Positions 40,719 through 56,980 of a stretch of 64,000 nucleotides of DNA are shown piece after piece. The notes under the pieces were generated by a model. The model saw nothing but the letters and a program-made list of their open reading frames with translations, did no database searches and was not told where the DNA came from. How positions within the stretch are numbered: the first letter of the stretch is position 1; each line of letters opens with the position of its first letter. The translations under genes and the position numbers were made by a program. Source of the stretch: Candidatus Binatia bacterium (GTDB lineage: Bacteria; Desulfobacterota; Binatia; UBA9968; JAJDTQ01). The DNA is taken from the NCBI GenBank assembly GCA_951813575.1, contig OX638375.1:62001-126000 (forward strand), read 5' to 3'.

Positions 40719-40758
40719 CCGCCGCGCCTGAGCATCGCGCATCGTTGCCGGCTCCGTC

Positions 40759-40977
40759 ATGATCATCGACATCGACCTCGAGAAGTGCACGAGCTGCGGG
40801 GAGTGCGACCCGGTGTGCCCCGCGGACATCATCCACATGGAAGAGCAGGGCGGCCGGCAGGTTCCGGTCCTCAAGCACGTGGAGCACTGCGTCACCTGCT
40901 TCAACTGCGAGATCTTCTGCCCGGTGCAGTGCATCGACGTCCACCCCATCGTCAGGCGCCGCCCGCTGCCCTGGTAG
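40759..40977 (+). CDS. Small 2[4Fe-4S] ferredoxin
   Basis: A 72-residue protein with two cluster motifs: CTSCGECDPVCP near residue 10 and CVTCFNCEIFCPVQC near residue 45. The 20-bp gap to the flavoprotein gene suggests that the two form a pair like the beta and alpha parts of adenylylsulfate-reductase- or fumarate-reductase-type enzymes. It should pass electrons to or from the flavin subunit. Confidence 0.9.
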   Translation: MIIDIDLEKCTSCGECDPVCPADIIHMEEQGGRQVPVLKHVEHCVTCFNCEIFCPVQCIDVHPIVRRRPLPW

Positions 40978-40997
40978 CCTGGGCCCACAGACCGGAC

Positions 40998-42680
40998 ATG
41001 CTCGAAAAGATCGGCAGACTCATCGACACCGACGTGCTCGTCGTCGGGGCGGGCGCCGGCGGCCTGTGGGCCGCGCTGAGCGCAAAGCGGCACCTCCCGG
41101 ACGGGCGAGTCACCCTGCTGGACGCCCACATGGTGGGGCGCACCGGCCACACCGCCTTCTCCAACGCCTGGATGGTGGTGGTCACGCCCGACGACGACCT
41201 CGACGCCTGCGTGCGCGACATCGTCGAAGGAAACGAGTGGGTCGCCGAGCAGGAGCTCATCCGCGACATCCTGTCGGTCTCCCACTTCCAGTTGCTGGAG
41301 CTGGAGAAGATGGGGCTCGTGTTCCCCAAGGAAAACCGCCGCTTCATCCGCCGTCCCACCCGCGGCCTCAAGGTCACCAAGGTGCTCAAGCCGGACGGCG
41401 GCGGTCTGGAATACTGCTGGCGCCTGCGCAAGGCGCTGGAAGCCGAGGGCGTGGACTTGGTGGAGCGGGTTTTCATCACCGATCTCGCACGGGATGACGG
41501 CGGGCGCGTCACCGGTGCCTTGGGTGTCGACGGCCGCACCGGCGAGTTCGTCATCGTCCGCGCCGGGGCCACGGTGCTGGCCACCAACAGCGTGACGTTT
41601 CGCGCCGGCTTCGTCCGTGACCTCACCGGCACCGGCACGCAACTGGCCTACGACGCCGGCGCGGTGCTGACCAACGCGGAGTTCGGCTATCTGCGTCCGG
41701 GAACCCCCAAGTTCTACTTCGAGGGCATCACCTTCGCCATCCAGGACGGCGCCAGGTTCGTCAACGCCCAAGGCGAGCCGTTCATGGAGCGGTACGAACC
41801 CGACTGGGCGGACCGGGCCGACGTGCAGGCGCTGAGCAAGGCCATGGTCCGGGAAAAGAAGGCGGGAAGGACGCCCCTCTACCTGGACATGTCGCTGATC
41901 CCGGAGGAGGAGCGGGGACAGTACCTCCAGAGCTCGGTGGCGTGGATGGACTACTTCTTTCGGAAGCTCGGCGACCGCGCCCGCATCGACATGTTCGGCA
42001 AGACCGAGTACTACCCCCTGTTCCAGATGACCAAGCTGGGAATCAAGACCGACGCCGCGTGCCGCTCTTCCGTTCCCGGCCTGCTGGCGGCGGGACTGGC
42101 CCAGGCGAGCTGCGCCAGTCATTTCGCCGGGTTCCATATCGGCGCCTGCAACGGCACCGGTTGGATCGCCGGCAGGAGCGCCGCGGACGACGCCCGGCGG
42201 CTGGGTGCGCCCCGGGTGTCCGAGGGCAATGCCCGGTCGGTGGAAGCGGAGACCCTGGCTGGATGGCGCGACGGAGACGAGAAGATCGACGACGAGCTCC
42301 TTCGCGCGCTCCAGACGCTCATTTTCCCGTACGAGGTTTCGGTGCTGAAGCACGAATCGCGCCTGCGGCGGGCACTGGCGGAGTTGGATGCCATCGAGGA
42401 GCGCGGCGCCCGAAGCCGCGCGGCCCACGTCCACGGCTTCGTGCGCCTGCGGGAAACCCGGTGCATGGTGGAGACCGCCCGGTTGATGCTGGAAGCGTCG
42501 CTGATGCGCCGGGAGAGCCGCATGAGCCACATGCGGGAGGACTATCCCGACCGGGACGACGAGGCGTGGCTGAACTGGATACTGATCGAGAAGGAGAACG
42601 GAGGGCGGCGTCTGTGGACGGAGCCCATCGCAACCCCGCTCGTGCCGCCGCCCGCCAGTGACGTCCAGCCCGACCGCTAG
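40998..42680 (+). CDS. FAD-dependent oxidoreductase, succinate dehydrogenase/AprA-type flavoprotein
   Basis: A 560-residue protein from the ATG at 40998. The N-terminal dinucleotide motif VVGAGAGGLWAALSA is followed by GRTGHTAFSNAW, near the flavin. The C-terminal block HMREDYPDRDDEAWLNW is the capping-helix pattern of the fumarate reductase/AprA superfamily. With its ferredoxin partner it probably oxidises or reduces a carboxylic or sulfur substrate; the reactive Arg/His set was not mapped. Its last four bases overlap the convergent cyclodeaminase-like copy 3. Confidence 0.82.
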   Translation: MLEKIGRLIDTDVLVVGAGAGGLWAALSAKRHLPDGRVTLLDAHMVGRTGHTAFSNAWMVVVTPDDDLDACVRDIVEGNEWVAEQELIRDILSVSHFQLLELEKMGLVFPKENRRFIRRPTRGLKVTKVLKPDGGGLEYCWRLRKALEAEGVDLVERVFITDLARDDGGRVTGALGVDGRTGEFVIVRAGATVLATNSVTFRAGFVRDLTGTGTQLAYDAGAVLTNAEFGYLRPGTPKFYFEGITFAIQDGARFVNAQGEPFMERYEPDWADRADVQALSKAMVREKKAGRTPLYLDMSLIPEEERGQYLQSSVAWMDYFFRKLGDRARIDMFGKTEYYPLFQMTKLGIKTDAACRSSVPGLLAAGLAQASCASHFAGFHIGACNGTGWIAGRSAADDARRLGAPRVSEGNARSVEAETLAGWRDGDEKIDDELLRALQTLIFPYEVSVLKHESRLRRALAELDAIEERGARSRAAHVHGFVRLRETRCMVETARLMLEASLMRRESRMSHMREDYPDRDDEAWLNWILIEKENGGRRLWTEPIATPLVPPPASDVQPDR

Positions 42681-43792
42681 AACAGATCCGGAAACAGATC
42701 TTCGGGTATCTCGCGCCCGACTCCCCGGCTCACGGCCGCCTCGTAGACTTTCCCCGCCAGGGCGGCGAACTGGAGCCCGAAACCGACGCTGTTGTTGAAG
42801 CAGGTGACCTGCTCGGAATCCGTCCGGCCCGGGTGACGATTGAGCAGCAGGTCCGGCAGGTCAGGAGTGTTGCGCCAGTCTATGTTCACGGCGTCGCCGG
42901 GCGGATAACCTTTCTCGATGTCCAGAAGGACCTGCTGCGGCAGCGGGCCGTGCGAGTTCCTGGCGACAAAGGTGGTCGGCCCCAGGTTGTCCCTGGAGTT
43001 GACCGCGAGGACGTCGAAACGGCCGAAGGTTTCCGGCGCGATTTCGCAGTGGCGCACCGAGCAGACGTATTGTCCGGGTTCCAACCAGCCGGTCTGGATC
43101 ACGGGCGTAAGCGCGTTGGTGGCAATGACGACGATGTCGCTGCCGCGCACGGCCTCCTCGGCGTTGGCGACGGCGGCCACGTCCGGGCAAGACTCCCACC
43201 GGGGGTCCTCGACGAAACGCTCTCGATGCGCCGGGTTGGGGCTGAACACCCGGACCGACTTGATCCCTTCGACCGCGTTCAGCATGGCGTCCAGGTGCGC
43301 CCCGGCCATGAAGCCGGTGCCCAGCACGCCGACGGAGGAGGCATCGGGCCTGGCAAGATATCCGGCCGCCAGGCCGGCGGCCGCCCCCACCCGCAAATTG
43401 CGTATGTGCCCTTCGCTGATGAGGGCCAGCAGGTCGCCGTTCTCCAGGCTGAACAGCATCAGCAAGCCCCGCGTGACGCTGTGACTCCGCCGGGTCCCCG
43501 GGGTCCGGTCGCGGCGGAAGCTGCCGGCGCGCTCCTGCCAGAAGAGCTTGTCGGTGAGGAACCGGATGGCCGCGTACTTCTGTGTGGAAGCCGACATGGT
43601 CTTCAGGCTGTGGGCGCCGGGCGAGGTGTTCCCGTCCTCGTCCACGTACGAATCGGGTGTGAGGAGGTCGATTCGGGGGCTCGTTATGGAAGCGCCCGTT
43701 CCGAGATCGCGGTAGGCCTCCTCGAGGGCGGACAGGCTCATGCGCATGTCGAGGAGTTGCTCCGATAGGGCATTGTCGATGGCGAGTATCAT
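42677..43792 (-). CDS. Ornithine cyclodeaminase/mu-crystallin-family protein, copy 3
   Basis: A 371-residue protein starting MILAIDNALSEQLLDMRMSL. IRNLRVGAAAGLAAGYLARPDA carries the conserved Arg, and SVGVLGTGFMAGAHLDAML the Rossmann loop; the ending SVGFGLQFAALAGKVYEAAVSRG is a version of the copies 2/4/5 pattern. Its substrate half has a long insertion (FRRDRTPGTRRSHSVTRG). It is transcribed toward the flavoprotein gene and away from the cupin gene at 44092. Substrate unknown. Confidence 0.8.
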   Translation of the reverse strand: MILAIDNALSEQLLDMRMSLSALEEAYRDLGTGASITSPRIDLLTPDSYVDEDGNTSPGAHSLKTMSASTQKYAAIRFLTDKLFWQERAGSFRRDRTPGTRRSHSVTRGLLMLFSLENGDLLALISEGHIRNLRVGAAAGLAAGYLARPDASSVGVLGTGFMAGAHLDAMLNAVEGIKSVRVFSPNPAHRERFVEDPRWESCPDVAAVANAEEAVRGSDIVVIATNALTPVIQTGWLEPGQYVCSVRHCEIAPETFGRFDVLAVNSRDNLGPTTFVARNSHGPLPQQVLLDIEKGYPPGDAVNIDWRNTPDLPDLLLNRHPGRTDSEQVTCFNNSVGFGLQFAALAGKVYEAAVSRGVGREIPEDLFPDLF

Positions 43793-43952
43793 GGATTCAG
43801 TTCCTTCTGGCTCAGTCCCTGATGTCGTGCACGGCCCATCCGGCGGCGGAACCCGCCGATGATCCCTCGAACGGTTTGGAGTTGTCAAGCCAACGGGCTT
43901 TGCCCGACGCCGATTGAGCAATCTCCAACGATCTCTATTCGCTTAATGTTCA

Positions 43953-43968
43953 ATATCAAAAACGATAT
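43953..43968. promoter_or_regulatory. Palindrome ATATC-AAAAAC-GATAT in divergent intergenic region
   Basis: An exact 5-bp inverted repeat with a 6-nt A-rich loop lies in an AT-rich stretch between the divergent cyclodeaminase-like copy 3 and the cupin gene (gap 43793-44091). It could be an operator for either gene. It is short enough to occur by chance. Confidence 0.25.
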
Positions 43969-44000
43969 GCCGTGACTCTTTTTTCAACTTTTCGACCTCT

Positions 44001-44028
44001 GTTATTTCTCACCGCGTTGCAGTATAAT
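44001..44028 (+). promoter_or_regulatory. Candidate promoter for the cysteine-dioxygenase-like gene
   Basis: TATAAT at 44023-44028 is a perfect -10 hexamer in an AT-rich patch of a GC-rich genome. No good -35 (GTTATT-like at about 17 bp) is visible. The start codon is 63 bp downstream of the -10. Confidence 0.4.
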
Positions 44029-44091
44029 CCGGCGACTATAGTCCGATGGCTTCCAACAAGGACTCTCAGGAGCCCACCAAGGAGGTGTGAA

Positions 44092-44658
44092 ATGGCGCTC
44101 GATCCGGCGACAACGAGCAACACGTTCGACCGTTACATCGAGGAGTTGCGCTCCCTTTGGAGAGACAGTCAAGACGCGGAGTTGCCCTTCAAGGTGAAGG
44201 CCGCCATGGAGCGGATGATCGCATCCACAAGTCCGGACGATCCCTGGATGGCCGAGATCATCCGAGACGCCGACCCGTCCAGAGAGCTCTACCGGGACCC
44301 GGACTACGGCTTCGTCCAGATGGGTCACGTGCATCCCGAAGGACACGGCAACACGCCCCACGACCACGGGCCTTGCTGGGTGGTTTACGGCGCCTATACG
44401 GGACTCACGGAAATACCGCTCTACGAGCGCGCCGACGACGGCCGGAACGCCGACAAGGCCGATTTGCGCATCAAGGAGGTCCACAGGCTGGGACCCGGCG
44501 TCGTCTACCCGTACCTGACGGGCCAGATTCATTCGACGCAGGTAGCGGAACCGCCTGCCGTGGTCTTCCGGTTCCTCAGCGCGGACCTCACCAAGATTTT
44601 GCGCCGGCGCTACAACCTGGAGACCGGAGACGTGTCGCTGATCGAGCCGCAGTCGTAG
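44092..44658 (+). CDS. Cysteine dioxygenase-like cupin protein
   Basis: A 188-residue protein with AAGGAGG before the ATG. GHVHPEGHGNTPHDHGPCWVVYGAY carries the His-x-His iron ligands of thiol dioxygenases (PHDHG), and the third His is in GQIHSTQVAE. Such enzymes oxidise cysteine, 3-mercaptopropionate or similar thiols. The next cyclodeaminase-like gene is 78 bp downstream on the same strand. Confidence 0.68.
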   Translation: MALDPATTSNTFDRYIEELRSLWRDSQDAELPFKVKAAMERMIASTSPDDPWMAEIIRDADPSRELYRDPDYGFVQMGHVHPEGHGNTPHDHGPCWVVYGAYTGLTEIPLYERADDGRNADKADLRIKEVHRLGPGVVYPYLTGQIHSTQVAEPPAVVFRFLSADLTKILRRRYNLETGDVSLIEPQS

Positions 44659-44736
44659 GCGGGTAGCCGTAGCCTGGGGTGGTGCATCCCGATGCCGGAG
44701 ACGTGAGGTGGCGGAAGTAGAGAGGATGCCGGCGCG

Positions 44737-45804
44737 ATGACCCACATCCTGAACAACGACGACGTCGAGAAGGTGCTCACCATGGACGTCTGCCTGGAGG
44801 CCGTGGAGCAGGCTTTCCAGGACCTGGGCCGGGAGATCGCGGTCAACCAGCTCCGCACACACACGTACGTTTCGTTGGAGAGTTCCAGGCAGTCCTACCG
44901 CCTCAAGACCATGAACGGCGCGGTGCCCCGCTTCGGCGTCATGGCCCTGCGTCTTTCGTCGGACATCGTCCACTTTCCCACGGTTTCCGGCCTGGTTCGT
45001 CAGGAGAAGGTTCCGGCCGCGCCCGGAAAGAAGTTCGTGGGCCTGATCCAGCTCTTCAGCCTCGAAACCGGCGAGCCTCTGGCCATCATCCAGGACGGAT
45101 TCCTGCAGAAGGCCCGGGTGGGGGCCACCAGCGCCCTGGGCGTGAAGTACCTGGCCCGGAAGGATGCCTGCGTGCTCGGGCTGTTCGGCTCGGGCCTCCA
45201 GGCGGGTGCGCACATCGAAGCCATCGCCAAGGTGCGGAAGCTCGAGAAGGTCAAGGTCTTCAGCCCCAACCCGGAGCACCGGCGGGCCTTCGCCGCGGAC
45301 TGGAATGATCGCCTGGGGTTTCCGGTCACCGCCGTGGACGATCCCAGGGACGCGGTGGCGGGGTCGGACATCGTCATGTCGGCCACCAATACCAACGAGC
45401 CGACCTTCAACGGCGAATGGCTGGAAGAGGGCACCCACGTGGGCTCCATCGTGAACAGCGACGAATCGGTCAAGCGCATCGAGCTGGACGAGGCGACGTT
45501 GCGCCGGGCCGACGTGATCGTCATCAACTCCCGCGCCCAGTCCGAGTACGCGGGCCATCCCGACCTGCTGAAGCCCATCGAGGACGGCGTGTTCGGCTGG
45601 GACAAGATCCACGAGCTGGGCAAGTTGTTGGTGGGCGAGGCGCCGGGCCGGGCCCGTGACGCCGACATCACCGTGTACAAGAACAACGTCGGCATGGGCA
45701 TCCAGTTCGCCGCGGTGGGCGCCAGGGTGCTGGAGTTGGCGAAGCAGGAGGGGTTGGGCCGGGAGATTCCCACGGACTGGTTTCTGGAGACGATACACCC
45801 TTAG
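44737..45804 (+). CDS. Ornithine cyclodeaminase/mu-crystallin-family protein, copy 4
   Basis: A 355-residue protein starting MTHILNNDDVEKVLTMDVCLEA. The conserved LQKARVGATSALGVKYLARKD and VLGLFGSGLQAGAHIEAI blocks are present, and NVGMGIQFAAVGARVLELAKQEG closes the protein, almost as in copies 2 and 5. VGSIVNSDESVKRIELDEATL replaces the usual motif around the catalytic aspartate. It follows the cysteine-dioxygenase-like cupin on the same strand. Reaction unknown. Confidence 0.82.
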   Translation: MTHILNNDDVEKVLTMDVCLEAVEQAFQDLGREIAVNQLRTHTYVSLESSRQSYRLKTMNGAVPRFGVMALRLSSDIVHFPTVSGLVRQEKVPAAPGKKFVGLIQLFSLETGEPLAIIQDGFLQKARVGATSALGVKYLARKDACVLGLFGSGLQAGAHIEAIAKVRKLEKVKVFSPNPEHRRAFAADWNDRLGFPVTAVDDPRDAVAGSDIVMSATNTNEPTFNGEWLEEGTHVGSIVNSDESVKRIELDEATLRRADVIVINSRAQSEYAGHPDLLKPIEDGVFGWDKIHELGKLLVGEAPGRARDADITVYKNNVGMGIQFAAVGARVLELAKQEGLGREIPTDWFLETIHP

Positions 45805-45866
45805 GGGATACAGGTGTGACAATCGTAGGCTTCGATCTCCGTGTGAGTCGAAAGGAGTTGAAACCC

Positions 45867-46106
45867 ATGGACGTCGATATCAAGTGGGGGCGGAAGGGTG
45901 GCATCGTCATCGCGATGCTGGTGGGTCGTTTCAGCAGCGCCAACGCGGACCTGTTCGAGCGCATGCTGGAAACCGGAGTCGATTCGTCGGACAAGGCCTT
46001 GATCCTCGACTTCGAGCACGTGCCCTTCCTCAGCAGCGCCGGTCTGCAACATCCGCAAGAGCAATACGCTCAGCATTCGCAACGTGCTCGAACTGTGTCT
46101 GCGTAA
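45867..46106 (+). pseudogene. STAS-domain gene, truncated 5' part
   Basis: The ATG at 45867 has AAAGGAG upstream. The product opens MDVDIKWGRKGGIVIAMLVGRF and has the STAS core ALILDFEHVPFLSSAGL, where the serine pair is the phospho-acceptor of anti-anti-sigma factors. After that point the STAS C-terminal half is missing: the frame runs 20 more unrelated residues to a stop (79 residues in all; typical STAS proteins are about 100). Another gene's fragment begins right there in a different frame. Confidence 0.65.
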
Positions 46107-46272
46107 ACGCTTCAAGCACCTGTTCTACGCCTCGAGCATGGGCGTGTTCCCGCAGTATTTCTACGCCTTCGCCCATGAATTCAAGCAGGCCACCATCGAT
46201 CACCAGATGCAACCCGACCTGGCGAGCATGAAAAAGATGTTTCCCATCGGTATTCGAGCCTCCCGTCGATGA
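46048..46272 (+). pseudogene. Fragment of an NAD-dependent epimerase
   Basis: In a frame shifted from the STAS gene, NIRKSNTLSIRNVLELC, then LRKRFKHLFYASSMGVFPQ and HQMQPDLASMKKMFPIG, read like the middle of an extended-SDR epimerase (the asparagine-rich NxxxTxxxxNVLE helix and the YASSMGV strand with the catalytic serine). The nucleotide-binding start and the Tyr-x-x-x-Lys part are absent. It ends at a stop at 46272 after an unrelated tail. It is a remnant joined to the STAS remnant. Confidence 0.5.
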
Positions 46273-46362
46273 TCCATCGTGACGAGGTTGCATTGCGGCC
46301 CTTGTGCGCGCTCCCTGGCCTGCTTCTTCGCCGCCGTACAACCGATCTGCTAAGAAGAGCCT

Positions 46363-47721
46363 GTGCATAATCCCGAAGCTCCCACCGTGACGAAGTTGTA
46401 CCCCGGTGCGCCGGAAAGCCGGGAGATCGAGACCGCGCCGCCGGCAGTCATCCGGCAAATGCAGGGAGAGCGCCTTGCCGCCCTGGTGCGGCGCTCCTGG
46501 GACCACATCCCGTTCTACCGCCAACGCTGGAAGGCGGCGGGCGTCGAACCCGGAGACATCCGCACCGCCGACGACATCCTCAAGCTCCCGGTCATCCGCA
46601 AGAGCGACTTCGAGGACAGCCTCAGGCTCCATCCGCCCTTCGGCGATTACCAGGGGGACTTCGCCGCGGTGCGGGTGCAGGCCAGCTCGGGCACCTCGGG
46701 CAACCCCAAGCCCTTCTTCTTCACCCGCAACGACTGGGACATCATCGCCCGGCTTTGGAGCCGGCGCTTCCACGCCCAGGGGGTGAGGGAAGGGGACATC
46801 CTCCAGATCGTCTTCGCCTACACGCTGTTCATCGTGGGCTTCACCGCCTCCGAGGGCGCCATGCGCCTCGGGGCGCTGGTGGTGCCCACCGGCAGCGGCA
46901 GCGTCACCCCGAGCGAGCGGCAGGTGAAGATCGCCCGGGACTGGGGGGTCACCGTGCTGGCGGGGACGCCTTCCTACGTGCTCCATCTCGCGGACGTGGC
47001 CGAAGGGCAGGGGTTCGACCTCCGGAAGGACTTCCGGCTCCGGCGCACCATCCACACTTCCGAGACCATGACCGAGCCCGCGCGACGGGCCATCGAAGAC
47101 CGCTGGGGCGTGTCCGCCTACGACAACTTCGGCAGCGTCGAGACCGGCTCCCCCACCTTCGAGTGCGAGGAGCGGAGCGGCTACCACATCAACGAGGACG
47201 CCTACATCTTCGAGGTGCTGGACCCGGCCACCCACGAGCCGGTGGCCCCGGGCAGCGAGGGCGTGCTGGTGGTCACCTGCCTCTTCAAGGAGGCGGCGCC
47301 GGTGATCCGCTACAACATCGAGGACCTGTGCACGTTTATCGAGGATGACTGCGGCTGCGGCCGCGGCTTCCGGCGCATCTCCAAGCTCCGGGGCCGGCTG
47401 AGCGACATGGTCAAGGTGAGCGGCATCCCGTTCTATCCGACCTCGGTGGAGACGGCGCTGGAGAGCCTGCCGGAGCTCACCCGGGAGTACTTGGTCACCG
47501 TGGACCGGGTGGGACAGCAGGACGCCGTGACGGTAGAGGTGGAGATGCGGCCGGGCTGCGAGGCCACCGGAGAGATCAGGCAACGGCTGGAGCGGGAGCT
47601 CAAGGTGGCCACGAGCCTCACCATGGAGGCCTCGCTGCTGTCGCCGGGCGAGCTCGGCCGTTCACTCGGAGTTGAGAACCGAATCAAGGTGAGACGGATC
47701 CGGGACAGGAGACAAGCGTGA
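46363..47721 (+). CDS. Phenylacetate-CoA ligase-family (PaaK-like) adenylate-forming enzyme
   Basis: A 452-residue protein from a GTG. The ATP-binding loop is VQASSGTSGNPKPFFFTRNDW, the acyl-adenylate signature YDNFGSVETG, and the hinge RYNIEDLCTF, then RLSDMVKVSGIPFYPTSVETAL, is exactly PaaK-like. These enzymes activate aryl acids to their CoA thioesters using ATP. It is the first gene of a plus-strand run with an RNA-ligase-like gene and a UbiD decarboxylase, so activation of an aromatic acid is plausible. Confidence 0.88.
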   Translation: MHNPEAPTVTKLYPGAPESREIETAPPAVIRQMQGERLAALVRRSWDHIPFYRQRWKAAGVEPGDIRTADDILKLPVIRKSDFEDSLRLHPPFGDYQGDFAAVRVQASSGTSGNPKPFFFTRNDWDIIARLWSRRFHAQGVREGDILQIVFAYTLFIVGFTASEGAMRLGALVVPTGSGSVTPSERQVKIARDWGVTVLAGTPSYVLHLADVAEGQGFDLRKDFRLRRTIHTSETMTEPARRAIEDRWGVSAYDNFGSVETGSPTFECEERSGYHINEDAYIFEVLDPATHEPVAPGSEGVLVVTCLFKEAAPVIRYNIEDLCTFIEDDCGCGRGFRRISKLRGRLSDMVKVSGIPFYPTSVETALESLPELTREYLVTVDRVGQQDAVTVEVEMRPGCEATGEIRQRLERELKVATSLTMEASLLSPGELGRSLGVENRIKVRRIRDRRQA

Positions 47722-47751
47722 GGGGCGCGGAGCGGGATCCCGGAGACTGCG

Positions 47752-48894
47752 TTGAAGCACATGGACGACCTGCAAACCGCCGCCGAGACTCTCGCCCTGG
47801 ACGCCAAGTGGCTCCAGGAATTCGACGTCGTCGATCCCTTCAACGACACGGCGCTGCGGGGCTTCCTGTCCCGCCGGCCGGACCACCGCTATGGAGCGCT
47901 GGCCGTCACCCACGTCAACGAGGAATCCGCTCCGCAGCTCGTCTTCGCCACGCCCAAGCTCCATTATCCCTTCGACCGGCAGGGCCGGTTCAATTTTCCA
48001 CCGGTCCGCGAGATCGAGATCTTCGAGAAGTACGACGGCACCAACGTGCTGGCGTATGCCTATCATGACGCCCGGGGACGCCGGTACCTGACCTACAAGC
48101 TGCGCCTGTCGCCGGTCTTGCGGAACGGACGCTTCGGCGCGTTCCTGGACCTGTGGCGGGAGATGCTGCAGCGCTACCCGGTGGTCCCCGAGCTGGTGGA
48201 CGTCAACGGGTGTTCCCTGGGCTTCGAGCTCTACGGCAGGCGTAACACGCATCTCATCCTCTACGAGGAGCCGTTGGACTGCGTGCTGCTCTTCGGCGTC
48301 ACCGCGGACGGGAAGCCGCTGTCGCCTTCGGGGCTGGACAGCCGCGGCGTGCCGGTGGCGACGCTCTACGGCACGCTGGCGGCGGGGAAGGATCCGGTGG
48401 CCGAGTACGGCGCCATCCGCGAGAGGCTTGAGCGGGACAACCGCCCGGCCGAGGACGGCAGGATCACGGGCGTCGAGGGGGCGGTGTGGCACGTGCGCAC
48501 GCGCGACGGCGCCACGGTGCTGTTCAAGTGCAAGCCCGAGTCCGTGGAGGAAGTGCATTGGGTGGGGAGCATCAACAAGGCCGCGGTCACCGCCACCTGC
48601 TGGAACCTGTTCGAGACGCAGGACGTGCTGACCTACGAGACCCTCCATCCACTGCTGGCGGAGGAGTATGCCGACGACGAGATCGAGCGCTTCAGGAGTT
48701 GCATCGACGAGTGCATCGCCGAGGTGTGCGAGGAGATGGAGTTCAAGAACCGGGTCATGGACGAGTACCGCCAGGTCGGCATCACGCTCTCCGAGAACAA
48801 GGGGGAGGTGATGCGCCGCCTCTCCGGCAGGTTCAGGAAGCAGGAGATGAAGAAGGTCTTCACCCTGATCGCGCTTGACGAAGGGCGCCGGTAA
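47752..48894 (+). CDS. ATP-dependent RNA ligase-like nucleotidyltransferase
   Basis: A 380-residue protein from a TTG with GGAG at the right distance (an ATG at 47761 is possible). Nucleotidyltransferase motifs are in order: motif I FEKYDGTN with Lys93 as likely AMP-acceptor, motif III LGFELYG with Glu159, motif IV VEGAVWHV with Glu242, motif V LFKCKPES with Lys259 and Lys261. This is the pattern of RNA ligases and mRNA capping enzymes; the C-terminal 110 residues are helical and unassigned. It sits between a PaaK-like ligase and a UbiD gene with no repair partner (such as Pnkp or RtcB) nearby. RNA repair is inferred from family only. Confidence 0.78.
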   Translation: MKHMDDLQTAAETLALDAKWLQEFDVVDPFNDTALRGFLSRRPDHRYGALAVTHVNEESAPQLVFATPKLHYPFDRQGRFNFPPVREIEIFEKYDGTNVLAYAYHDARGRRYLTYKLRLSPVLRNGRFGAFLDLWREMLQRYPVVPELVDVNGCSLGFELYGRRNTHLILYEEPLDCVLLFGVTADGKPLSPSGLDSRGVPVATLYGTLAAGKDPVAEYGAIRERLERDNRPAEDGRITGVEGAVWHVRTRDGATVLFKCKPESVEEVHWVGSINKAAVTATCWNLFETQDVLTYETLHPLLAEEYADDEIERFRSCIDECIAEVCEEMEFKNRVMDEYRQVGITLSENKGEVMRRLSGRFRKQEMKKVFTLIALDEGRR

Positions 48895-48898
48895 AGGA

Positions 48899-48946
48899 AG
48901 GGCGCCGCCTCCTCCGGCGGCGGGTCCGGCCCGACGCCCGGCGCCC
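48899..48946. repeat. GC-rich nested inverted repeats between RNA ligase and ubiD-family genes
   Basis: CGCCGCC (48903-48909) pairs with GGCGGCG (48916-48922) around TCCTCC, inside an outer pair GGGCGCCG near 48899 and CGGCGCCC near 48939. No T run follows. It could be a stability or attenuation hairpin. Confidence 0.4.
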
Positions 48947-48994
48947 CTGTCTGCACGCTTGCAATCGCACCACCGGCACCTTACGTTTGACGGC

Positions 48995-50428
48995 ATGATT
49001 TTCGACGACAATCGCGGCTTCATCGAGGCGCTCCGGCGCTCCGGCGACCTCGTGGAGGTGGAGAAAGAGGTGAGCTGGGACCTGGAGCTCGGCGCCATCA
49101 GCCGGCTGGCGTGCGAGAAGGACGGCCCGGCGGTGTGGTTCAAGCGGGTCACGGACTACGTGGACGAGGTCTCGGTTTTCGTCAATCCGGTGGCCACCTG
49201 GCGCCGCATCGCCATCGCCCTGGGGCTGCCCGCCACGGCTACCGTGCGGGAGATCTACGAAGCCTACGAGAAGGGGGAGGGGAGTCCCGTCGATCCGGTG
49301 GAGGTGAAGGAAGCGCCGTGCAAGCAGGTGATACGCAAGGGTGCCGACGCCAACCTCTTCGATCTGCCCACGCCCATGCTTCACGAGGGCGACGGCGGCC
49401 GCTACCTGGGCACCTGGGATCTGGTGATCTCCAAGGACGTGGACAGCGGCTGGGTCAACTGGGGCATGTACCGGTTCATGGTCTACGACGCGCACCACCT
49501 CACCGGCTTCCCTCGGCCCACGAGCCACCTGGGCAAGGTCTTTCAGGAGCACTACGTCGCCAAGGGAAAGCCCATGCCTTTGGCCATCGCCATCGGCACG
49601 GATCCGCTCTCCCACTTCGCGGCGGCCGCCACCTACGCCCTGGGGGGCGACGAGGCCGGCCTGGCCGGAGGGCTGCGCGGCCGGCCGGTGGAGATGATCC
49701 GCTGCGAGACCAGCGATCTGATGGTGCCGGCCCATTCCGAGATCGTCATCGAGGGCGAGGTGTTGCCGGACCGGGTGGGGCTTGAGGGACCCTACGGCGA
49801 GTATCCGGGCTATCGCACCGGGGAGATGGGCAACGGCATCCTGTTCCGCACCACCGCCATCACCCACCGGGAGGCCCCGGTGCTCACGGTGGATGCCACC
49901 GGCTACAAGGATGACAGCTCGACGGTGACGGCGCTGTCCGGAGCGCTGGCCATCAAGCGGCGGCTGGAGCGCCACGGCGTGCCCGTCCGGGACGTGTACG
50001 TGCCGCCGGAGGGCGCCGTGCACCTGGCGGTCATGAGCGTGGACTACGGCGGCCAGGAAGTGGCCCGGAAGGTGCTCCAGGTGCTGACCTCGCGCCGGGC
50101 GCTCCTGTCCAAGCTCTTCCTGGTGGACACCGACACCGACGTGTTCGACATGGGCAAGGTCCTCCACGCGTTTTCCACCAAGTGCCACCCGGCCAACGGC
50201 ATCCACGTGATCCACTACGAGGGCCGGGCCAACACGCTGACGCCCTGCTACAGCCAGGCGGAGCGGGCGGCGCAGAAGGGCGCCACCGTGCTCTACGACT
50301 GCACCTGGCCGGGTGAATGGTCCCGCGAGTGGGAGACGCCGGTCAAGGCGACCCTGGATTCGATCTTCTCCAAGGAGGTGCAGGAGAAGGTGCTGAAGAA
50401 CTGGAGCGAGTATGGCTTCAAGCAGTGA
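48995..50428 (+). CDS. UbiD-family (de)carboxylase
   Basis: A 477-residue protein from the ATG at 48995. Family blocks: IEALRRSGDLVEVEKEVSWDLELGAI at the start, PTPMLHEGDGGRYLGTWDLVIS, IAIGTDPLSHFAAAA, and GPYGEYPGYRTGEMGNGI, the conserved Glu-rich prFMN-site block. UbiD enzymes use prenylated FMN (made by UbiX) to decarboxylate aromatic or unsaturated acids; no ubiX is in the window. It shares an operon with the PaaK-like ligase and overlaps the next small gene by 17 bases. Confidence 0.88.
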   Translation: MIFDDNRGFIEALRRSGDLVEVEKEVSWDLELGAISRLACEKDGPAVWFKRVTDYVDEVSVFVNPVATWRRIAIALGLPATATVREIYEAYEKGEGSPVDPVEVKEAPCKQVIRKGADANLFDLPTPMLHEGDGGRYLGTWDLVISKDVDSGWVNWGMYRFMVYDAHHLTGFPRPTSHLGKVFQEHYVAKGKPMPLAIAIGTDPLSHFAAAATYALGGDEAGLAGGLRGRPVEMIRCETSDLMVPAHSEIVIEGEVLPDRVGLEGPYGEYPGYRTGEMGNGILFRTTAITHREAPVLTVDATGYKDDSSTVTALSGALAIKRRLERHGVPVRDVYVPPEGAVHLAVMSVDYGGQEVARKVLQVLTSRRALLSKLFLVDTDTDVFDMGKVLHAFSTKCHPANGIHVIHYEGRANTLTPCYSQAERAAQKGATVLYDCTWPGEWSREWETPVKATLDSIFSKEVQEKVLKNWSEYGFKQ

Positions 50429-50732
50429 CGCGCCGGTCTGGGACACCTTCGTGCGCCGTCCGGGGGACATCCGGTGCGGCGTGGAGACGCCGATGGTCCT
50501 GAGGGACCTGCGGCCGGGCCGGGGCAAGTACGGGCTCAGTCACGTGGTGGGCGTCGTCCGCGAGGGCGGCGGTCCGGGCGACGGGCTCGTGGTGCGCACC
50601 GTGGTGGGCGTGGTTCTGCCCGGGTCCTATACCGTCGAGATCGTCCGGGAGATGCCCCAGGAGATCGCCGGGACCCCGTACCGGGACTTCTACGCGGCGT
50701 TGCAACGGGCGGCCGAAGCGGAACCTGCATAG
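50412..50732 (+). CDS. Small protein of unknown function overlapping the UbiD gene
   Basis: A 106-residue protein starting inside the UbiD gene's 3' end (17-base overlap), so it is probably translationally coupled. The sequence is hydrophilic with glycine-rich turns (LRPGRGKYGLSHVVGVVREGGG) and beta-rich repeats (VVRTVVGVVLPGSYTVEIV). It has no cysteines, so it is unlike the zinc-binding D subunits of vanillate/gallate decarboxylases. I recognise no family. A role as subunit or chaperone of the decarboxylase is inferred from position only. Confidence 0.6.
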   Translation: MASSSDAPVWDTFVRRPGDIRCGVETPMVLRDLRPGRGKYGLSHVVGVVREGGGPGDGLVVRTVVGVVLPGSYTVEIVREMPQEIAGTPYRDFYAALQRAAEAEPA

Positions 50733-50860
50733 CGGGCGCTACACGAACGGCATCTACGGGCCCGTTCTCCACGGCAAGGACGACCACTCCCCCGCCGATT
50801 TCCAGCCTCCTGCCTGGACGCGGTTGCACGTCTGTCCCGTTTCCGCGGGACGTGGCCTCA

Positions 50861-52018
50861 TCATTGCTGAACCCCATGCGGGTCCAGCGCGTCCCGAAGA
50901 CCGTCGCCGATGTAGTTGAACGCCATGACGGTGATGAAGATCAGGACGCCGGGAATCAGGATCCACGGATGGAAGCGGATCTGCGCGATGTCCATGGCCA
51001 GGGCCAGCATGTTGCCCCAGGAGGCCTCGGGGTCCTGGATGCCGAGGCCGATGAGGCTCAGCCCGGACTCCCCGAGGATGTAGCCCGGGATGGACATGGT
51101 CGCGGCGACGATGGCGTAGGAGAACGTGTTGGGGAGCACGTGGCGTATGATGATGCGCGAGTGGGGAACGCCCATGGCCCGTGCGCTGGTGACGTAGTCC
51201 ATCTCGCTGATGGAGAGTACGAGTCCACGGATGATCCGCGCCAGGCTGGCCCAGCCGATGAAGCTCAGGATGACCACGATGGCCAGGTAGGTCTCGAAGG
51301 ACGACCAGTCCGCCGGAATCGCGGCGCGCAGGGCCAGGAGAAGATAGAAGCCCGGCATCATCATCAGCATTTCACACAGCCGCTGAATGAGCATGTCCGT
51401 GCGGCCGCCGAAATAACCGGATGCGCCGCCGATGAGCATTCCCAGGACGAACGTGATGGCCACTCCCACCAGCCCCACCGACAGTGAGATGCGGCCGCCG
51501 TACAGGAGGCGGGAGAGGACGTCGCGGCCGAAGTTGTCCGAGCCGAGCAGGAAGAGCATGGGCCGGTTCGGGTCGGTGTGGGAGATGTTCTCAACGCCGC
51601 GCAAGCCGAACAGGTGGAGGCGTGTCTCGATCAGCCCCAGGAAACGGTAAGCGTCTCCGGTGACGAAGAGTCCGATGGGATAGGCGGTGCCCGGCGTTTC
51701 GCGGTAGACCTTGCGCTGGTTCTCGTCGAATTCGAAGGCGCTGTTGCGGACGTAGGGCCACGTCAGCCCGTTCTCGTCGAAGAAGTGGACCCAGGTGATC
51801 ATGGGCGGATGATAGGCTTTCTTGCGGGCGCTGGCGGCATAGTGGTGGGGCGAGAGGAAGTCCGCGAAGATGGCGGTGCCGTAGAGGAATACGAGGATCC
51901 AGAAACCCAGCATGGCCAGGCGGTTGCGCCTCAGACGGGAAAGGGCGCGGCGGAACGGGGAGCGGGACCCCGGTGTGCCGCGCCGTTCGCGGATGGCGGT
52001 TTCGGGCTCGGGAGACAT
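50861..52018 (-). CDS. Peptide/nickel-type ABC transporter permease (DppC-like)
   Basis: A 385-residue inner-membrane protein, longer than usual because of an extended loop between the first and second helices (residues about 60-160). The ABC permease EAA-type loop reads ARAMGVPHSRIIIRHVLPN, and YVTSARAMGV precedes it. The N-terminus RRNRLAMLGFWILVFLYG and C-terminus NYIGDGLRDALDPHGV are typical of DppC/OppC. It works with the DppB-like permease 5 bp upstream and the solute-binding protein beyond. Confidence 0.88.
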   Translation of the reverse strand: MSPEPETAIRERRGTPGSRSPFRRALSRLRRNRLAMLGFWILVFLYGTAIFADFLSPHHYAASARKKAYHPPMITWVHFFDENGLTWPYVRNSAFEFDENQRKVYRETPGTAYPIGLFVTGDAYRFLGLIETRLHLFGLRGVENISHTDPNRPMLFLLGSDNFGRDVLSRLLYGGRISLSVGLVGVAITFVLGMLIGGASGYFGGRTDMLIQRLCEMLMMMPGFYLLLALRAAIPADWSSFETYLAIVVILSFIGWASLARIIRGLVLSISEMDYVTSARAMGVPHSRIIIRHVLPNTFSYAIVAATMSIPGYILGESGLSLIGLGIQDPEASWGNMLALAMDIAQIRFHPWILIPGVLIFITVMAFNYIGDGLRDALDPHGVQQ

Positions 52019-52023
52019 GGCGG

Positions 52024-53892
52024 CTACCTGTAGCTGATGCGCGGATCGACCCATGCCAGCAGGATGTCGGCGATGAGGTTGCCGATGATCAGCAGCAGGC
52101 CTCCCGCCAGAGAGCTGGCCATCACGACATAGATGTCGTAGGACCGCACCGCGGTAAGCATCAGTTGCCCGATCCCGGGATAGCCGAAAACGATCTCCAC
52201 CAGGGCCGAGCCGCCGATGAGGGTGGGTAGCAGGGAGCCGAAGCCCGCCACGAACGGGGTGATGGCGTTTCTCAGGATGTGCTTGTAGTTCACCGCGGCA
52301 TTGGAGAGGCCCTTGGCCCGTGCCGTTACCACGAACTGCATGTGGCTCTTGTCGAGAAACTCCGCTCGCAGCACCCGGACCAGCGCCGCCATGGAGCCGG
52401 TTCCCAACACGAGGACCGGCAGCACCAGGTGACGGGCCACGTCCATCATCCGCCCCCACCTGCCGAGCTCATGGTAGTTCGCCGACGTGAGCCCCCCTAT
52501 GGGAAGAAACTCGTACAGCGGATTGGCCGGGGCGAGATCATAGGTCAGTGTCACGGCATAGAGCAGCAACAGCGCGAAGAAGAACGAAGGGATGGCCATG
52601 CCCATGTAGGCCATGAAGCCGAAGGCCTTGTCTCTCCAGGAGTAGGGATGCGTGGCGGAGTAGATTCCGATGGGCAGCGACAGCAGCCAGGTGAAGAGAA
52701 TGGCCAGCACGTTCAACAGCATGGTGTTCTTGAGGAAAGGCCACATGGTGGTCCAAACGGGCTGGCGGTTCGCGATGGACTTGCCGAAATCCGGCATGCC
52801 GACGTGGAAGCCGCTGCCGGCCTTCTCGAGCCGGATCTCGTCCACGAAAAGCGAGCCGGGGACGTCACCGCGGAACGAGATCGACTCCATGCGCGTGGTA
52901 TCCAGGCCCGCGGAGTGAAGTTCCCCAAAGTCGACGGAGAGTGATGTGGTCACGTCGGGGGGAAGGGCCACGTCGGTCGCATAGGTGTCGCCGTCCGCAT
53001 CCCGGAAAGCCACGTTCACGGTCATGGGCGGCGTCGGTTCCGCGATGATCCTGAAGGCCACGCGGTCACAGCGGCCCGGGTCCCTGAGCCCCGCCGGAAA
53101 GGCATTGCGCACCAGGGCCAGGCGGTGCGTCGGATCCAGCGCGTGGCGCACGGTGGCCAGCACCGTGTCTCCCGCACGATAGGCGACCTCCAGCACTGCG
53201 GGCCTTCCGCCGCGTTGTCGTGCGAAGAGAAACAGCCCCTTGAGTTTGGTCCGGTCCACATCGAAGCGGGCGTAGTCGGCGTCGGTCAGCGCGATGGACG
53301 CCGGTTCGTCCGTGTCGATGGACCGGCGCTCCTGGAACGCCTTCCCGTCGCGGTCCTGGATGCGCAGGAAAATGTCCGCGCCGCCCACCCGGTCGTTGCG
53401 GAGTTCCATTTCGACGGCCTGGAAGTCGTTGCCGGACCAGTGATTTCCCGGCCGTTGACTTGCCGTATTGGGGTTGTCCGTCTTTCGCAACACGCCGGCA
53501 TCTCCGGCCGCGGCGAAGTTGAACCCGAGCCCGAAGGTGCCGTCTTCCGGCACCGGGACGAGGATGGGCGTAGCGTTGCCGGTGATCCTGTAGGCACTCC
53601 GGTTGGCGGCCAGATCGGCGTACTCGAAGTCGGCGATGCGAGTGCGCTCGCTCGAGACACGAATGTCGAACAACACGCCGCGCAACCATCGCAGGTACTG
53701 GGTCCCCCAGCCCTTGTCCGCGCCGAACTCGCGTTTCCATTGGCGCAGTTGCCGCTGATTGAGGTCAGGCTGGAGCGCCCATTGGTCGAAGTAGTCTCCC
53801 GGAGCGATCTGGATGATCATGAAAATGACGAAGGTCAGGGCGAAGAGTGACGGAATCGTGATGAGCAGCCGCCTGAGGATGTAGGTCGTCAT
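52024..53892 (-). CDS. Peptide-type ABC transporter permease (DppB-like) with a large extra soluble domain
   Basis: A 622-residue protein; DppB relatives have about 310-360. Residues 1-75 (first helix YILRRLLITIPSLFALTFVIFMI and the loop TGDYFDQWALQPDL-like) and about 380-622 (KNTMLLNVLAILFTWLLSLPI, then the EAA loop ARAKGLSNAAVNYKHILRNA and FGYPGIGQLM) form the usual permease. Between them, about 85-375, lies an inserted soluble, beta-rich region with alternating hydrophobic strands, which by topology is periplasmic. It may bind substrate or interact with the binding protein. I do not recognise its family. Confidence 0.82.
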   Translation of the reverse strand: MTTYILRRLLITIPSLFALTFVIFMIIQIAPGDYFDQWALQPDLNQRQLRQWKREFGADKGWGTQYLRWLRGVLFDIRVSSERTRIADFEYADLAANRSAYRITGNATPILVPVPEDGTFGLGFNFAAAGDAGVLRKTDNPNTASQRPGNHWSGNDFQAVEMELRNDRVGGADIFLRIQDRDGKAFQERRSIDTDEPASIALTDADYARFDVDRTKLKGLFLFARQRGGRPAVLEVAYRAGDTVLATVRHALDPTHRLALVRNAFPAGLRDPGRCDRVAFRIIAEPTPPMTVNVAFRDADGDTYATDVALPPDVTTSLSVDFGELHSAGLDTTRMESISFRGDVPGSLFVDEIRLEKAGSGFHVGMPDFGKSIANRQPVWTTMWPFLKNTMLLNVLAILFTWLLSLPIGIYSATHPYSWRDKAFGFMAYMGMAIPSFFFALLLLYAVTLTYDLAPANPLYEFLPIGGLTSANYHELGRWGRMMDVARHLVLPVLVLGTGSMAALVRVLRAEFLDKSHMQFVVTARAKGLSNAAVNYKHILRNAITPFVAGFGSLLPTLIGGSALVEIVFGYPGIGQLMLTAVRSYDIYVVMASSLAGGLLLIIGNLIADILLAWVDPRISYR

Positions 53893-53947
53893 GGTCGAAT
53901 CAACCAGGTCTCCGTGACGTCACCCCGGACCAGGGATGGAACGCCGG

Positions 53948-55735
53948 CTACTTCAGATGAAGCCTGCGTACGTCGAACAGTCCGAACAGGGTCGGCGTCA
54001 TATTGGCGAAGCGATTCCGGACGGCGGTGATACGCTCGGCCAGCGCGGTATAGACCACGGGCACGTGGTCTGACGCGATCTGTTGGAACTCCCGGTAGAC
54101 GGCGACCCGCTTTCGCCGTTCCAACTCGCGGCTGCCGCGGACGAAGAGCCCGTCGATCCGTTTTTCCCACTCGGTGGCGGGTTCCTCCTGGTTCGGAAAC
54201 CACAGGTGAAGCCGTTCGCCGGAATGCCAGAAATTGATGCCGTGGTGAGGCTCTACGCCGCCCGTGAAGCCTATCACGATGGCTTCCCAATCGTAGGTGC
54301 TGGTGAGCTGGGACACCAGGGTGTTGAATTCCAGAAACCGGAGGTTCACCCGTACGCCGATCCTTGCGAGGTCCTGCTTCATGATCGTGCACACTCGTTC
54401 CCGCACGGTATTCCCGGAGTTGGTGGCAAGGGTGAAGACGATGTTGTTGCCTTCGGCGTCTTCCCGGACGCCGTCGCCGTCGCCGTCGAACCAGCCCAGG
54501 CCATCCAGCAGGGCGTTGGCCTTGTCGATGTCGTACGGGTATCGGGTCACCTCGGGGTTGTGGAAGTCGCCGGCCGCGGGGCTCACCGCCGCCCACTGCG
54601 GATAGCCGAGTCCGTTCATGACGTTGTCGATGATGCTGTCCTTGTCGATGCTGTGCGCCACCGCCTTCCTGAAGTCCAGCGTCCGGAACCATCCCAGCTT
54701 GACGGGATCGACAAACGGGGCGTCGTTCCTGGAATTCTTGCCGGCGTTCATGTTCAGGGCGAGGAAGGTGGTTCCGAAGTTCGGACCTCTCTTGTACAGG
54801 GTGAAGTTCTTCGCCGTTTCCTGCGGCTTCAGGATCGGGTAGTGCTCGCCGGTCACTTCCAGGACGTCGGTTTCACCCGCCTGAAACTTCAAGAGCGACG
54901 TGGCCAGGTTGGGCACCACCAGGTAGACGATGCGGTCGAGGTACGGCAGGGGCTTTCCCGCCGCGTCCCGTTGCCAGTACCGTGGGTTCCTCCCGAGGAC
55001 GATGCGCTCCCCCGCGTCGTAGCGCTCGATGGTGAACGGCCCGGTGCCGATGATGTCGCCGGGTTTGGTGCCCACATCCCAGGTGGACGTGAAAGTGCCG
55101 TCGTCCACGTGCTTCTCCAGGATGTGCCTGGGATAGATGGCCGTGCCCATGGCCCGCAAGAAAGGCGCAAACGGCACCGGCAGGGTGAACCTCACGGTAT
55201 GCTCGTCGACCTTCTCGGCCTTCACCTGGCCCTTTTTCCAGGTCTGCGCGACGTCATCGCGGTAGCGGATGGTGAGGCCCGGCCGAGCCGACGCCGGGAT
55301 ATCGTCGTTGTAGATGATCCTGGAGAACGTGAAGATGACGTCGTCCGTGGAGAAGGGAGCCCCGTCGGCCCACTTCACACCCTTGCGCAAGAAGAAGGTC
55401 CAGACGATGCCGTCTTCGGATGACTCCCAGCGTTCAGCCAGGCCCGGCTCGACCTCCGCGGTCAGCCAGGAGGTTTCGACGAGGCCTTCGAACACGTAGT
55501 CGAGAATCTCGGTCGACGACGTCTCCGTGGAAATGGCCAGATTGAAAGTCTTGGGACCGGAGATCGTCGAGTAGGTCAGCGTCCCCCCGGGCTTGCCGAT
55601 CTCGTGGCGGAACTCCGCGGCGTTCTTCTTCAGCCGCTCCACCAGCTCGAGGTCGCGGGAGTGGGCCGGTTCCAGCGCAGTGAAACCGAACGCCGTAACG
55701 GTGAGAGCCACCATCGCTCGGATCAGTCGATACAT
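53948..55735 (-). CDS. ABC transporter substrate-binding protein, family 5
   Basis: A 595-residue exported protein: MYRLIRAMVALTVTAFGFTALEPAHS is a signal peptide. The family 5 blocks GTLTYSTISGPKTFNLAIS, FEGLVETSWLTAEVEPGLAE and FFLRKGVKWADGAPFSTDDVIFTF mark it as a peptide/nickel/oligosaccharide binding protein. It is the first gene of a minus-strand operon with the two permeases. No ATP-binding subunit lies in this window, so it must come from elsewhere or be shared. Confidence 0.9.
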   Translation of the reverse strand: MYRLIRAMVALTVTAFGFTALEPAHSRDLELVERLKKNAAEFRHEIGKPGGTLTYSTISGPKTFNLAISTETSSTEILDYVFEGLVETSWLTAEVEPGLAERWESSEDGIVWTFFLRKGVKWADGAPFSTDDVIFTFSRIIYNDDIPASARPGLTIRYRDDVAQTWKKGQVKAEKVDEHTVRFTLPVPFAPFLRAMGTAIYPRHILEKHVDDGTFTSTWDVGTKPGDIIGTGPFTIERYDAGERIVLGRNPRYWQRDAAGKPLPYLDRIVYLVVPNLATSLLKFQAGETDVLEVTGEHYPILKPQETAKNFTLYKRGPNFGTTFLALNMNAGKNSRNDAPFVDPVKLGWFRTLDFRKAVAHSIDKDSIIDNVMNGLGYPQWAAVSPAAGDFHNPEVTRYPYDIDKANALLDGLGWFDGDGDGVREDAEGNNIVFTLATNSGNTVRERVCTIMKQDLARIGVRVNLRFLEFNTLVSQLTSTYDWEAIVIGFTGGVEPHHGINFWHSGERLHLWFPNQEEPATEWEKRIDGLFVRGSRELERRKRVAVYREFQQIASDHVPVVYTALAERITAVRNRFANMTPTLFGLFDVRRLHLK

Positions 55736-55897
55736 TGTCGCCTCCGGGGCCTGGCCTTGTCGGGATGCCCCGTCCTCACTTGACGGGGACGGACCGTCAG
55801 TCTACCGTAAGTTGCTGAACTGAAACGAGAGGTCGCGACGAATCGGACGCTCGATGTTCGCGGGCGGCGACTCCGGGACAACGCCGGCAGGGGGATC

Positions 55898-56980
55898 ATG
55901 ATGGCTGACGAGGACGTGCTGGTCCTGACCAACGAGGACATGGAGGGTCTCCTCGACATGGGGGAGATCGTGGATGCGGTGGAAACGGCGTACGGAGAGC
56001 TTGGCCGGAAGATCGCCGAGGGTATGCCCCGGCGCCGGCTGCACATGCCGCAGGAGGGCCTGGAGCGCACCTGGTACTGGCTGAACGTCATTCCCGGGGC
56101 GGTGCCGGCCTTCGATACGGCCGCGGTGCGGCTCGATTCGTCCCAGATCCGGTTCCGAAACGTGGACGGCGCGAGCCGCATGGAGTTCCCCGGCGACTTC
56201 TCCGGCTTCGTCATGCTCTTCAGCATCAAGGAACGGGCCCTCAAGGGCATCGTCCACGACCACTACCTGTCGGCGCTCCGGGTCGGGGCCACCAGCGGGG
56301 TCGCGGCGAAGTACCTGGCGCGGGAGGACGCGTCGGTGCTGGGCATCTTCGGCAGCGGCACCCAGGCACACGGCCAGGTGTCGGCCTTTTGCGCGGTGCG
56401 GAAGATCCGGGAGGTCAAGGTGTTCTCGCTGCGGGAGGAGAACCGGCAGCGCTTCGCCAGGGAAGTGACCGAACGCTACGGCGTCAAGGCCCGCGCCGTG
56501 CGGCGTCCCGAGGACGTGGTCCACGATTCGGACATCGTGGTCACCGCCACCAACTCCGGCGACCCGGTGTTCGACGGCGACCTGTTGGAGCCGGGCACGC
56601 ACGTCGTCTCCATGATCGGCCCGGACTGGTTCGACAAGCGCCGTGAGCTGGACGACGCCGCCATCGAGAACTGCGACCTCATCGTGGTGAATTCCAAGGA
56701 GCAGGTGGAGATCGACGAACAGCCCGAGCTGATGTCGCCGATACGGAAGGGCATCATCGGCTGGGAGCAGATTCACGAGTTGGGGGACCTGGTCATCGGC
56801 AACATCGCCGGCCGCACCACCGCCTCGGAGATCACCCATCACAACAACAACTGCGGCATGGGCATCCAGTTCGCCGCCATCGGCCACCTGGTGCTGGAGG
56901 AAGCCCGTAAGAAAAAGCTGGGCACGCGGCTTCCGGTGGATCTGTTCATGACCCGCCGGACGGATGTGTCCTCGCCTTGA
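55898..56980 (+). CDS. Ornithine cyclodeaminase/mu-crystallin-family protein, copy 5
   Basis: A 360-residue protein with AGGGGGATC before adjacent ATGs. YLSALRVGATSGVAAKYLARED and VLGIFGSGTQAHGQVSAFC are the family blocks, and NCGMGIQFAAIGHLVLEEARKKK is the ending shared with copies 2 and 4. GPDWFDKRRELDDAAIENCDLIVVNS replaces the usual motif. It is followed after 22 bp by the Sua5/YrdC-family gene. Reaction unknown. Confidence 0.82.
   Translation: MMADEDVLVLTNEDMEGLLDMGEIVDAVETAYGELGRKIAEGMPRRRLHMPQEGLERTWYWLNVIPGAVPAFDTAAVRLDSSQIRFRNVDGASRMEFPGDFSGFVMLFSIKERALKGIVHDHYLSALRVGATSGVAAKYLAREDASVLGIFGSGTQAHGQVSAFCAVRKIREVKVFSLREENRQRFAREVTERYGVKARAVRRPEDVVHDSDIVVTATNSGDPVFDGDLLEPGTHVVSMIGPDWFDKRRELDDAAIENCDLIVVNSKEQVEIDEQPELMSPIRKGIIGWEQIHELGDLVIGNIAGRTTASEITHHNNNCGMGIQFAAIGHLVLEEARKKKLGTRLPVDLFMTRRTDVSSP

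Follow-up and report, generated by a model that had tools for sequence, protein, structure and literature searches.

ATP-dependent RNA ligases share the chemistry of their superfamily, in which a lysine is adenylated by ATP, the AMP is transferred to the 5'-phosphate end of an RNA, and this end is sealed to a 3'-OH (PMC3400036). In phage T4 the ligase Rnl1 repairs cleaved tRNA together with Pnkp (PMC3400036, PMC4411300), and the ATP-grasp RNA ligases of jumbo phages, mostly of the Rnl1 and Rnl2 types, have been interpreted as tRNA-repair enzymes (PMC7824862), while archaeal Rnl3 circularises RNA (PMC9014305, PMC12153264). The locus considered here lies in a stretch of 64,000 nucleotides from a Candidatus Binatia bacterium, analysed as a whole and called the window, where an earlier note had recognised an RNA ligase-like enzyme embedded in an aromatic-acid operon. 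Homologue comparison and structure modelling support the assignment of the predicted protein to the ATP-dependent RNA ligases, among which the T4 Rnl1 type is closest to it. We favour, as probable though well short of certain, the reading that this Rnl1-like enzyme repairs RNA, most likely tRNA, and that its position in the operon reflects no joint function.

The ligase gene and its motifs

The features of the locus, with the evidence for each in brackets, are the following.

46363..47721, + strand: PaaK-like CoA ligase, upstream neighbour, context only (NCBIfam matches below cut-off; synteny)
47761..48894, + strand: gene for the putative Rnl1-like ATP-dependent RNA ligase (ORF, homologue alignment, AlphaFold2 model with pLDDT 88.6, RNA ligase fold matches)
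47761..48003, + strand: residues 1-81, an N-terminal module preceding the adenylation core and containing the conserved blocks DPFN, DHRYGA and ATPKLHYPF (conservation, strands of the model)
48028..48045, + strand: motif I, KYDGTN, with K90 as predicted nucleophile, aligned with K99 of T4 Rnl1 (invariant in 13/13)
48223..48246, + strand: motif III, FELYGRRN (E156, N162), followed by Y168 (profile alignment to T4 Rnl1, homologue conservation)
48475..48486, + strand: motif IV, EGAV (E239) (profile alignment to Rnl1, homologue conservation)
48523..48534, + strand: motif V, FKCK (K256, K258), interrupted by an intein in phage contig L063 (profile alignment, conservation, intein copy)
48577..48891, + strand: predicted all-helical C-terminal domain, residues 273-377 (helices of the AlphaFold2 model; few fold-search matches cover the region)
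48959..48987, + strand: promoter-like box TTGCAA-N17-TACGTT before UbiD (conserved junctions; 1 match vs. 0.02 expected in the window)
48995..50428, + strand: UbiD-family decarboxylase, downstream neighbour, context only (TIGR00148 above cut-off)

The open reading frame 47752-48894 is intact on the forward strand and would encode 380 aa from a TTG start, but homologue alignments begin at or near the ATG at 47761, which is the probable start and gives 377 aa; residues are numbered here from this ATG, and Lys93 of the earlier note is K90. That the frame is a real gene, as had been proposed, is confirmed by homologues 84-86% identical within the genus and by their dN/dS (0.10-0.21). PaaK ends 39 bp before the ATG and 30 bp before the TTG at 47752, and the ATG of UbiD (48995) lies 100 bp past the ligase stop, so the spacings given previously (30 bp and about 100 bp) hold when taken from the TTG and the stop. 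GC and GC3 of the gene match those of the neighbouring genes, and by composition the ligase is therefore not recently foreign. No Rfam match was found within positions 40000-56000 of the window.

Motifs I, III, IV and V had been described as present in order, and they are indeed found as EKYDGTN, FELYGRRN, EGAV and FKCK (K90-x-DG, E156, E239-G, K256-x-K258), with K90, D92, G93, E156, N162, Y168, E239, G240, K256 and K258 invariant in all 13 homologues and the key motif residues kept down to 33-40% identity. The E-x5-N-x5-Y register around motif III (E156/N162/Y168) has the spacing of E159/N165/Y171 in T4 Rnl1. Where an Rnl1-type C-terminal domain would be expected, the model is all-helical and few of the fold matches span the region; this part of the protein may determine specificity. 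A C-terminus resembling that of T4 Rnl2 was also considered and is unsupported, the Rnl2 profile giving no match (P 0.17).

Fold, family placement and phage relatives

An AlphaFold2 model built from bacterial sequences only had a pLDDT of 51 and was discarded; with phage relatives added, to 13 sequences, the mean pLDDT reached 88.6. Foldseek returned 40 matches to this model in the PDB at E <=0.001, all of them ligases and nearly all RNA ligases, and the 34 best matches of VIA-align (Z 11.2-17.0) were RNA ligases apart from 3qwu, which carries the label putative DNA ligase. The highest ranks were taken by the archaeal Rnl3 MthRnl (5d1o; Z 17.0, 3.3 Å, 234 residues), T4 Rnl1 (5tt6 and 9do4; Z 16.8, the latter with 3.4 Å and 226 residues) and fungal Trl1 (6n67; Z 16.4), with Rnl2 at Z of about 11 and the named DNA ligases, 3qwu excepted, at 9.6 or less. 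The values of 17.0 and 16.8 amount to a tie, and a decision between Rnl1 and Rnl3 cannot be made on fold alone. RNA ligases are also included among the phage structure models that match the ligase model.

Profile comparison by hhalign aligned the family with nine Rnl1 relatives over 213 columns spanning motifs I, III, IV and V (probability 95%, P 3.3e-8), and no match was obtained with the Rnl2 profile or with T4 DNA ligase (P 0.59); single-sequence hhalign comparisons with T4 Rnl1 and Rnl2 were too weak for use. The RNA ligase-like class put forward in the earlier note is thus supported by the fold search and by the profile-profile comparison, both of which admit T4 Rnl1 as a close relative and the second of which points to it as the nearest, and a search for profiles placing the protein in a non-ligase family found none. 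A nucleotidyltransferase with another acceptor (mRNA-capping-like, DNA nick-sealing or protein-AMPylating) would be expected to carry motifs I, III, IV and V, which are common across the superfamily, and DNA ligases do appear lower in the fold list. We regard it nevertheless as very unlikely, as RNA ligases score about 7 Z units higher than the named DNA ligases (17.0 vs. 9.6), the T4 DNA ligase profile does not match and the Rnl1-specific E-x5-N-x5-Y register is present.

The window protein itself matched no family in Pfam, NCBIfam, PHROG, PADLOC or the PDB sequences; a profile of the bacterial members only found no PDB sequence, and one including the phage members gave a chance match only. 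Among its relatives, one phage member matched Pfam RNA_ligase PF09414 at E 3.8e-5, below the curated cut-off, and one related member matched phrog_562, of the T4 Rnl1 type, at E 1.7e-7. Because known families are reached only weakly, and none by the window protein, we consider it part of a divergent Rnl1-like family rather than a plain member of Rnl1. Judged by its sequences, this family is absent from the searched libraries and yet of a known enzyme kind.

Scans of IMG/VR with family profiles recovered relatives at 32-40% identity on ten contigs of 9 to 545 kb, several of them short fragments and some from very large phages. One contig (L059) carries a terminase large subunit and another (L064) a phage multi-subunit RNA polymerase, so that at least these two are from phages and mislabelled host DNA can be dismissed for them. 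No family member was detected by tblastn among 50,697 GenBank phage records, which gave one chance-level match, and the GenBank plasmid collection yielded no convincing relative. The ligase tree separates bacterial from phage copies with a support of 95/97 and, being unrooted, carries no direction of transfer. No recurrent repair partner was seen beside the phage copies, the recurring neighbours being only those expected of related phages. Inteins usually occupy conserved active-site sequence; in contig L063 (9998-12196; IMGVR_UViG_3300018018_000001) an intein of 343 residues, which includes a LAGLIDADG endonuclease, splits the ligase inside motif V, from which we infer that motif V is a working site. 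Overall, as far as homology can tell, the divergent Rnl1-like family is common to one order of Ca. Binatia and to very large phages.

Distribution, selection and the PaaK-UbiD junction

Within the genus, besides the window's own genome, the ligase was found at 84-86% identity in seven of eight genomes, the one lacking a match being 88% complete, and several genomes from another family of the same order (f3) carry copies at 54-55% identity, with two further copies there broken or split between frames. Profile searches detected it, in a patchy pattern, in 14 of the 35 genomes of this order and in none of 113 other genomes of the class, and a single-sequence search found none in the other genomes among 395 sampled from the phylum. 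The named relatives returned by a pattern-based genome scan come from metagenome bins under the label of either Candidatus Binatia or Deltaproteobacteria.

The dN/dS of 0.10-0.21 within the genus indicates that the gene is maintained by purifying selection. A decaying phage-derived remnant, functionless in the bacterium, could be suspected from the phage genes that are its closest non-bacterial relatives, from the patchy distribution and from broken or fragmentary copies in two genomes (G013 and G029). This reading appears scarcely credible against the low dN/dS, the invariance of all catalytic residues and the agreement of GC and GC3 with the neighbours; as part of the explanation that we favour, the ligase is probably a chromosomal accessory gene. 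In G013 about the last 40% of the ligase is left (L072), and the G029 copy (L071) is split by a stop and a change of frame, which may be an assembly error; a match in G073, which contains a stop and is 35% identical over 100 residues, is taken to be chance. The rarity of RNA ligases in chromosomes, stated in the earlier note, holds only in part, since another RNA ligase, this one recognised by Pfam, is encoded in the same genome outside the window (L053, G000:C1:1380063-1380536; PF09414, 74 bits, about 233 aa). This second ligase lies downstream of an AAA-type-ATPase-like ORF and may belong to a defence island.

The place of the gene is kept only by some of its relatives. Of the eight same-genus junctions that are visible, six have the ligase between PaaK and UbiD (G000, the window's own genome, and G001, G003, G004, G005 and G007), while in G002 and G008 PaaK is directly followed by UbiD, and the ligase is thus no conserved component of the PaaK-UbiD operon. 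The ligase of G002 is on another contig, in the same place as in G006, and in the f3 genomes its neighbours are unlike either same-genus arrangement. As two junctions lack the ligase and other locations exist, its position is not evidence of joint function, and the tie to the aromatic-acid operon implied by the earlier note is not borne out: the ligase is a guest in this operon, and the association is positional only, by insertion or relocation. The ligase tree places G002 and G006 beside G001, and the trees of the operon genes leave the order of G000, G001, G002 and G008 unsettled, so that a single entry with later exit and separate entries are both compatible with them.

A TTGCAA-N17-TACGTT-like box precedes UbiD in all eight genomes, ligase present or not, at a distance of about 7 nt from its ATG; a scan with the sigma-70 consensus did not list it. 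The box suggests that UbiD has its own transcript, which may be leaderless. Service of the ligase in the PaaK/UbiD aromatic-acid pathway, for instance with a small molecule or an RNA of the pathway as the target of adenylation, would agree with the six junctions that hold it. It is highly improbable in our view, given the direct succession of PaaK and UbiD in G002 and G008, the ligases located elsewhere in G002, G006 and the f3 genomes, a promoter-like box that stands before UbiD with or without the ligase, and phage relatives beside which no PaaK- or UbiD-type genes were seen.

Some further observations concern the junction. In G007, about 220 extra bases between PaaK and the ligase (L017:5704-6000) contain the inverted-repeat sequence CATCGCGCCTTGCCGAC...GTCGGCAAGGCGCGATG and resemble a small mobile repeat. 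Most genomes of the genus have about 30-40 UbiD-family homologues (35 in G000), and for most of these the identity to the window UbiD is about 30-33%. The window UbiD itself (48995-50428) scores to the phenylphosphate carboxylase alpha subunit model below cut-off. After UbiD, a small ORF (50412-50732) has a sub-threshold match to the phenylphosphate carboxylase subunit gamma (E 0.099).

Proposed role and comparison with known RNA ligases

In the proposed mechanism, attack of K90 on ATP would yield enzyme-AMP; where an RNA is broken, the AMP would then be handed to the 5'-phosphate of one piece, and attack by the 3'-OH of the second piece would reseal the strand. The RNA so mended would probably be tRNA that a ribotoxin or an anticodon nuclease has cleaved. 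Repair is the leading candidate role, by analogy, for phage and bacterial copies, because T4 Rnl1 and Pnkp repair tRNA and the jumbo-phage ligases have been interpreted in the same way.

The earlier note had reported no adjacent RNA-repair partner, and indeed no polynucleotide kinase/phosphatase stands beside the ligase. A search for T4 PseT in host and phage records, run without a positive control, found none; AAA_33 kinases, present in the host but in just one of the nine phage records, are too generic to count as a healing partner; RtcB was not found in the window's genome. A SNF2/SWIM helicase precedes the ligase by 52 bp in G024, and a related gene does so by about 0.8 kb in G030 of the same genus; in G002 a SWIM protein of another kind is encoded at a distance of several genes. 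The helicase was set aside as a partner for not being recurrent.

The lack of a healing partner in these searches would also fit an RNA ligase devoted to RNA circularisation or processing, as archaeal Rnl3 with C/D box RNAs, and the best single fold match is the Rnl3 structure 5d1o, tied with T4 Rnl1. We consider this role unlikely. The sequence profile favours Rnl1; the Rnl3 models PF18330 and TIGR01209 gave no match, a comparison made with curated models only and, for Rnl1, by profile-profile alignment; and HARP (PIN_5), the companion family of Rnl3, had no match in the window's genome, with the control found in 4 of 14 genomes.

RNA repair, the role that we prefer, can proceed without a healing enzyme because some breaks already carry a 5'-phosphate and a 3'-OH, the ends left by metal-dependent PIN nucleases. 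That the family specifically works in this way, on breaks made by VapC-type PIN toxins, and gives bacterium or phage resistance to tRNA-cutting immunity, is decidedly unlikely. The only context hint for such healing-free repair, and a lead only, is found in G002, where a PIN-domain toxin gene paired with a Phd antitoxin gene follows the ligase at a distance of about 470 bp (L020:7604-8214); the pair is missing from the same site in G006. A further Phd antitoxin lies upstream of the G002 ligase (L020, 3994-4272).

These results extend Rnl1-type enzymes to chromosomes of an uncultured bacterial order and link them with phages that, in this analysis, came from metagenomes only. The curated libraries used miss the ligase, whose members therefore tend toward annotation as hypothetical proteins, and the history of the PaaK-UbiD junction is a caution that the gene neighbourhood in one genome is a poor guide to function. 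If the enzyme is active, it would represent, on a chromosome and under strong purifying selection, what phages use for RNA repair; the benefit to bacteria could then be studied with it, and it might also be a new enzyme for joining single-stranded RNA.

Among the known systems, T4 Rnl2 shares with the window protein the K-x-x-G-T-N of motif I and an adenylation-domain fold (Z about 11), but its profile does not match (P 0.17). The ligase domain of fungal Trl1 is close in fold (Z 16.4), although Trl1 is fused to kinase and CPD domains and the window protein is a single ligase module. Archaeal Rnl3 (MthRnl, Pab1020) gives the top fold match through its adenylation domain (Z 17.0), while the window protein matches no Rnl3 model of Pfam or NCBIfam, its genome has no HARP family and its C-terminal part is unmatched. 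The jumbo-phage ATP-grasp RNA ligases (PMC7824862) fall into the same class, broadly taken, and have carriers of the same kind, whereas the present ten contigs are from uncultivated phages and tblastn found none of the family in the 50,697 GenBank phage records. T4 Rnl1 (RnlA, gp63) differs in sequence (about 15% identity, with Rnl1-type family models missing the window protein) and in its Pnkp partner, for which no counterpart was seen here, and its C-terminal domain may or may not correspond to the all-helical one modelled here; yet the two proteins have K/DG, E-x5-N-x5-Y, EG and K-x-K in the same register, are linked by a profile match (P 3.3e-8) and by fold (Z 16.8), and are of nearly equal length (374 aa in T4 Rnl1 and 377 aa in the window protein).
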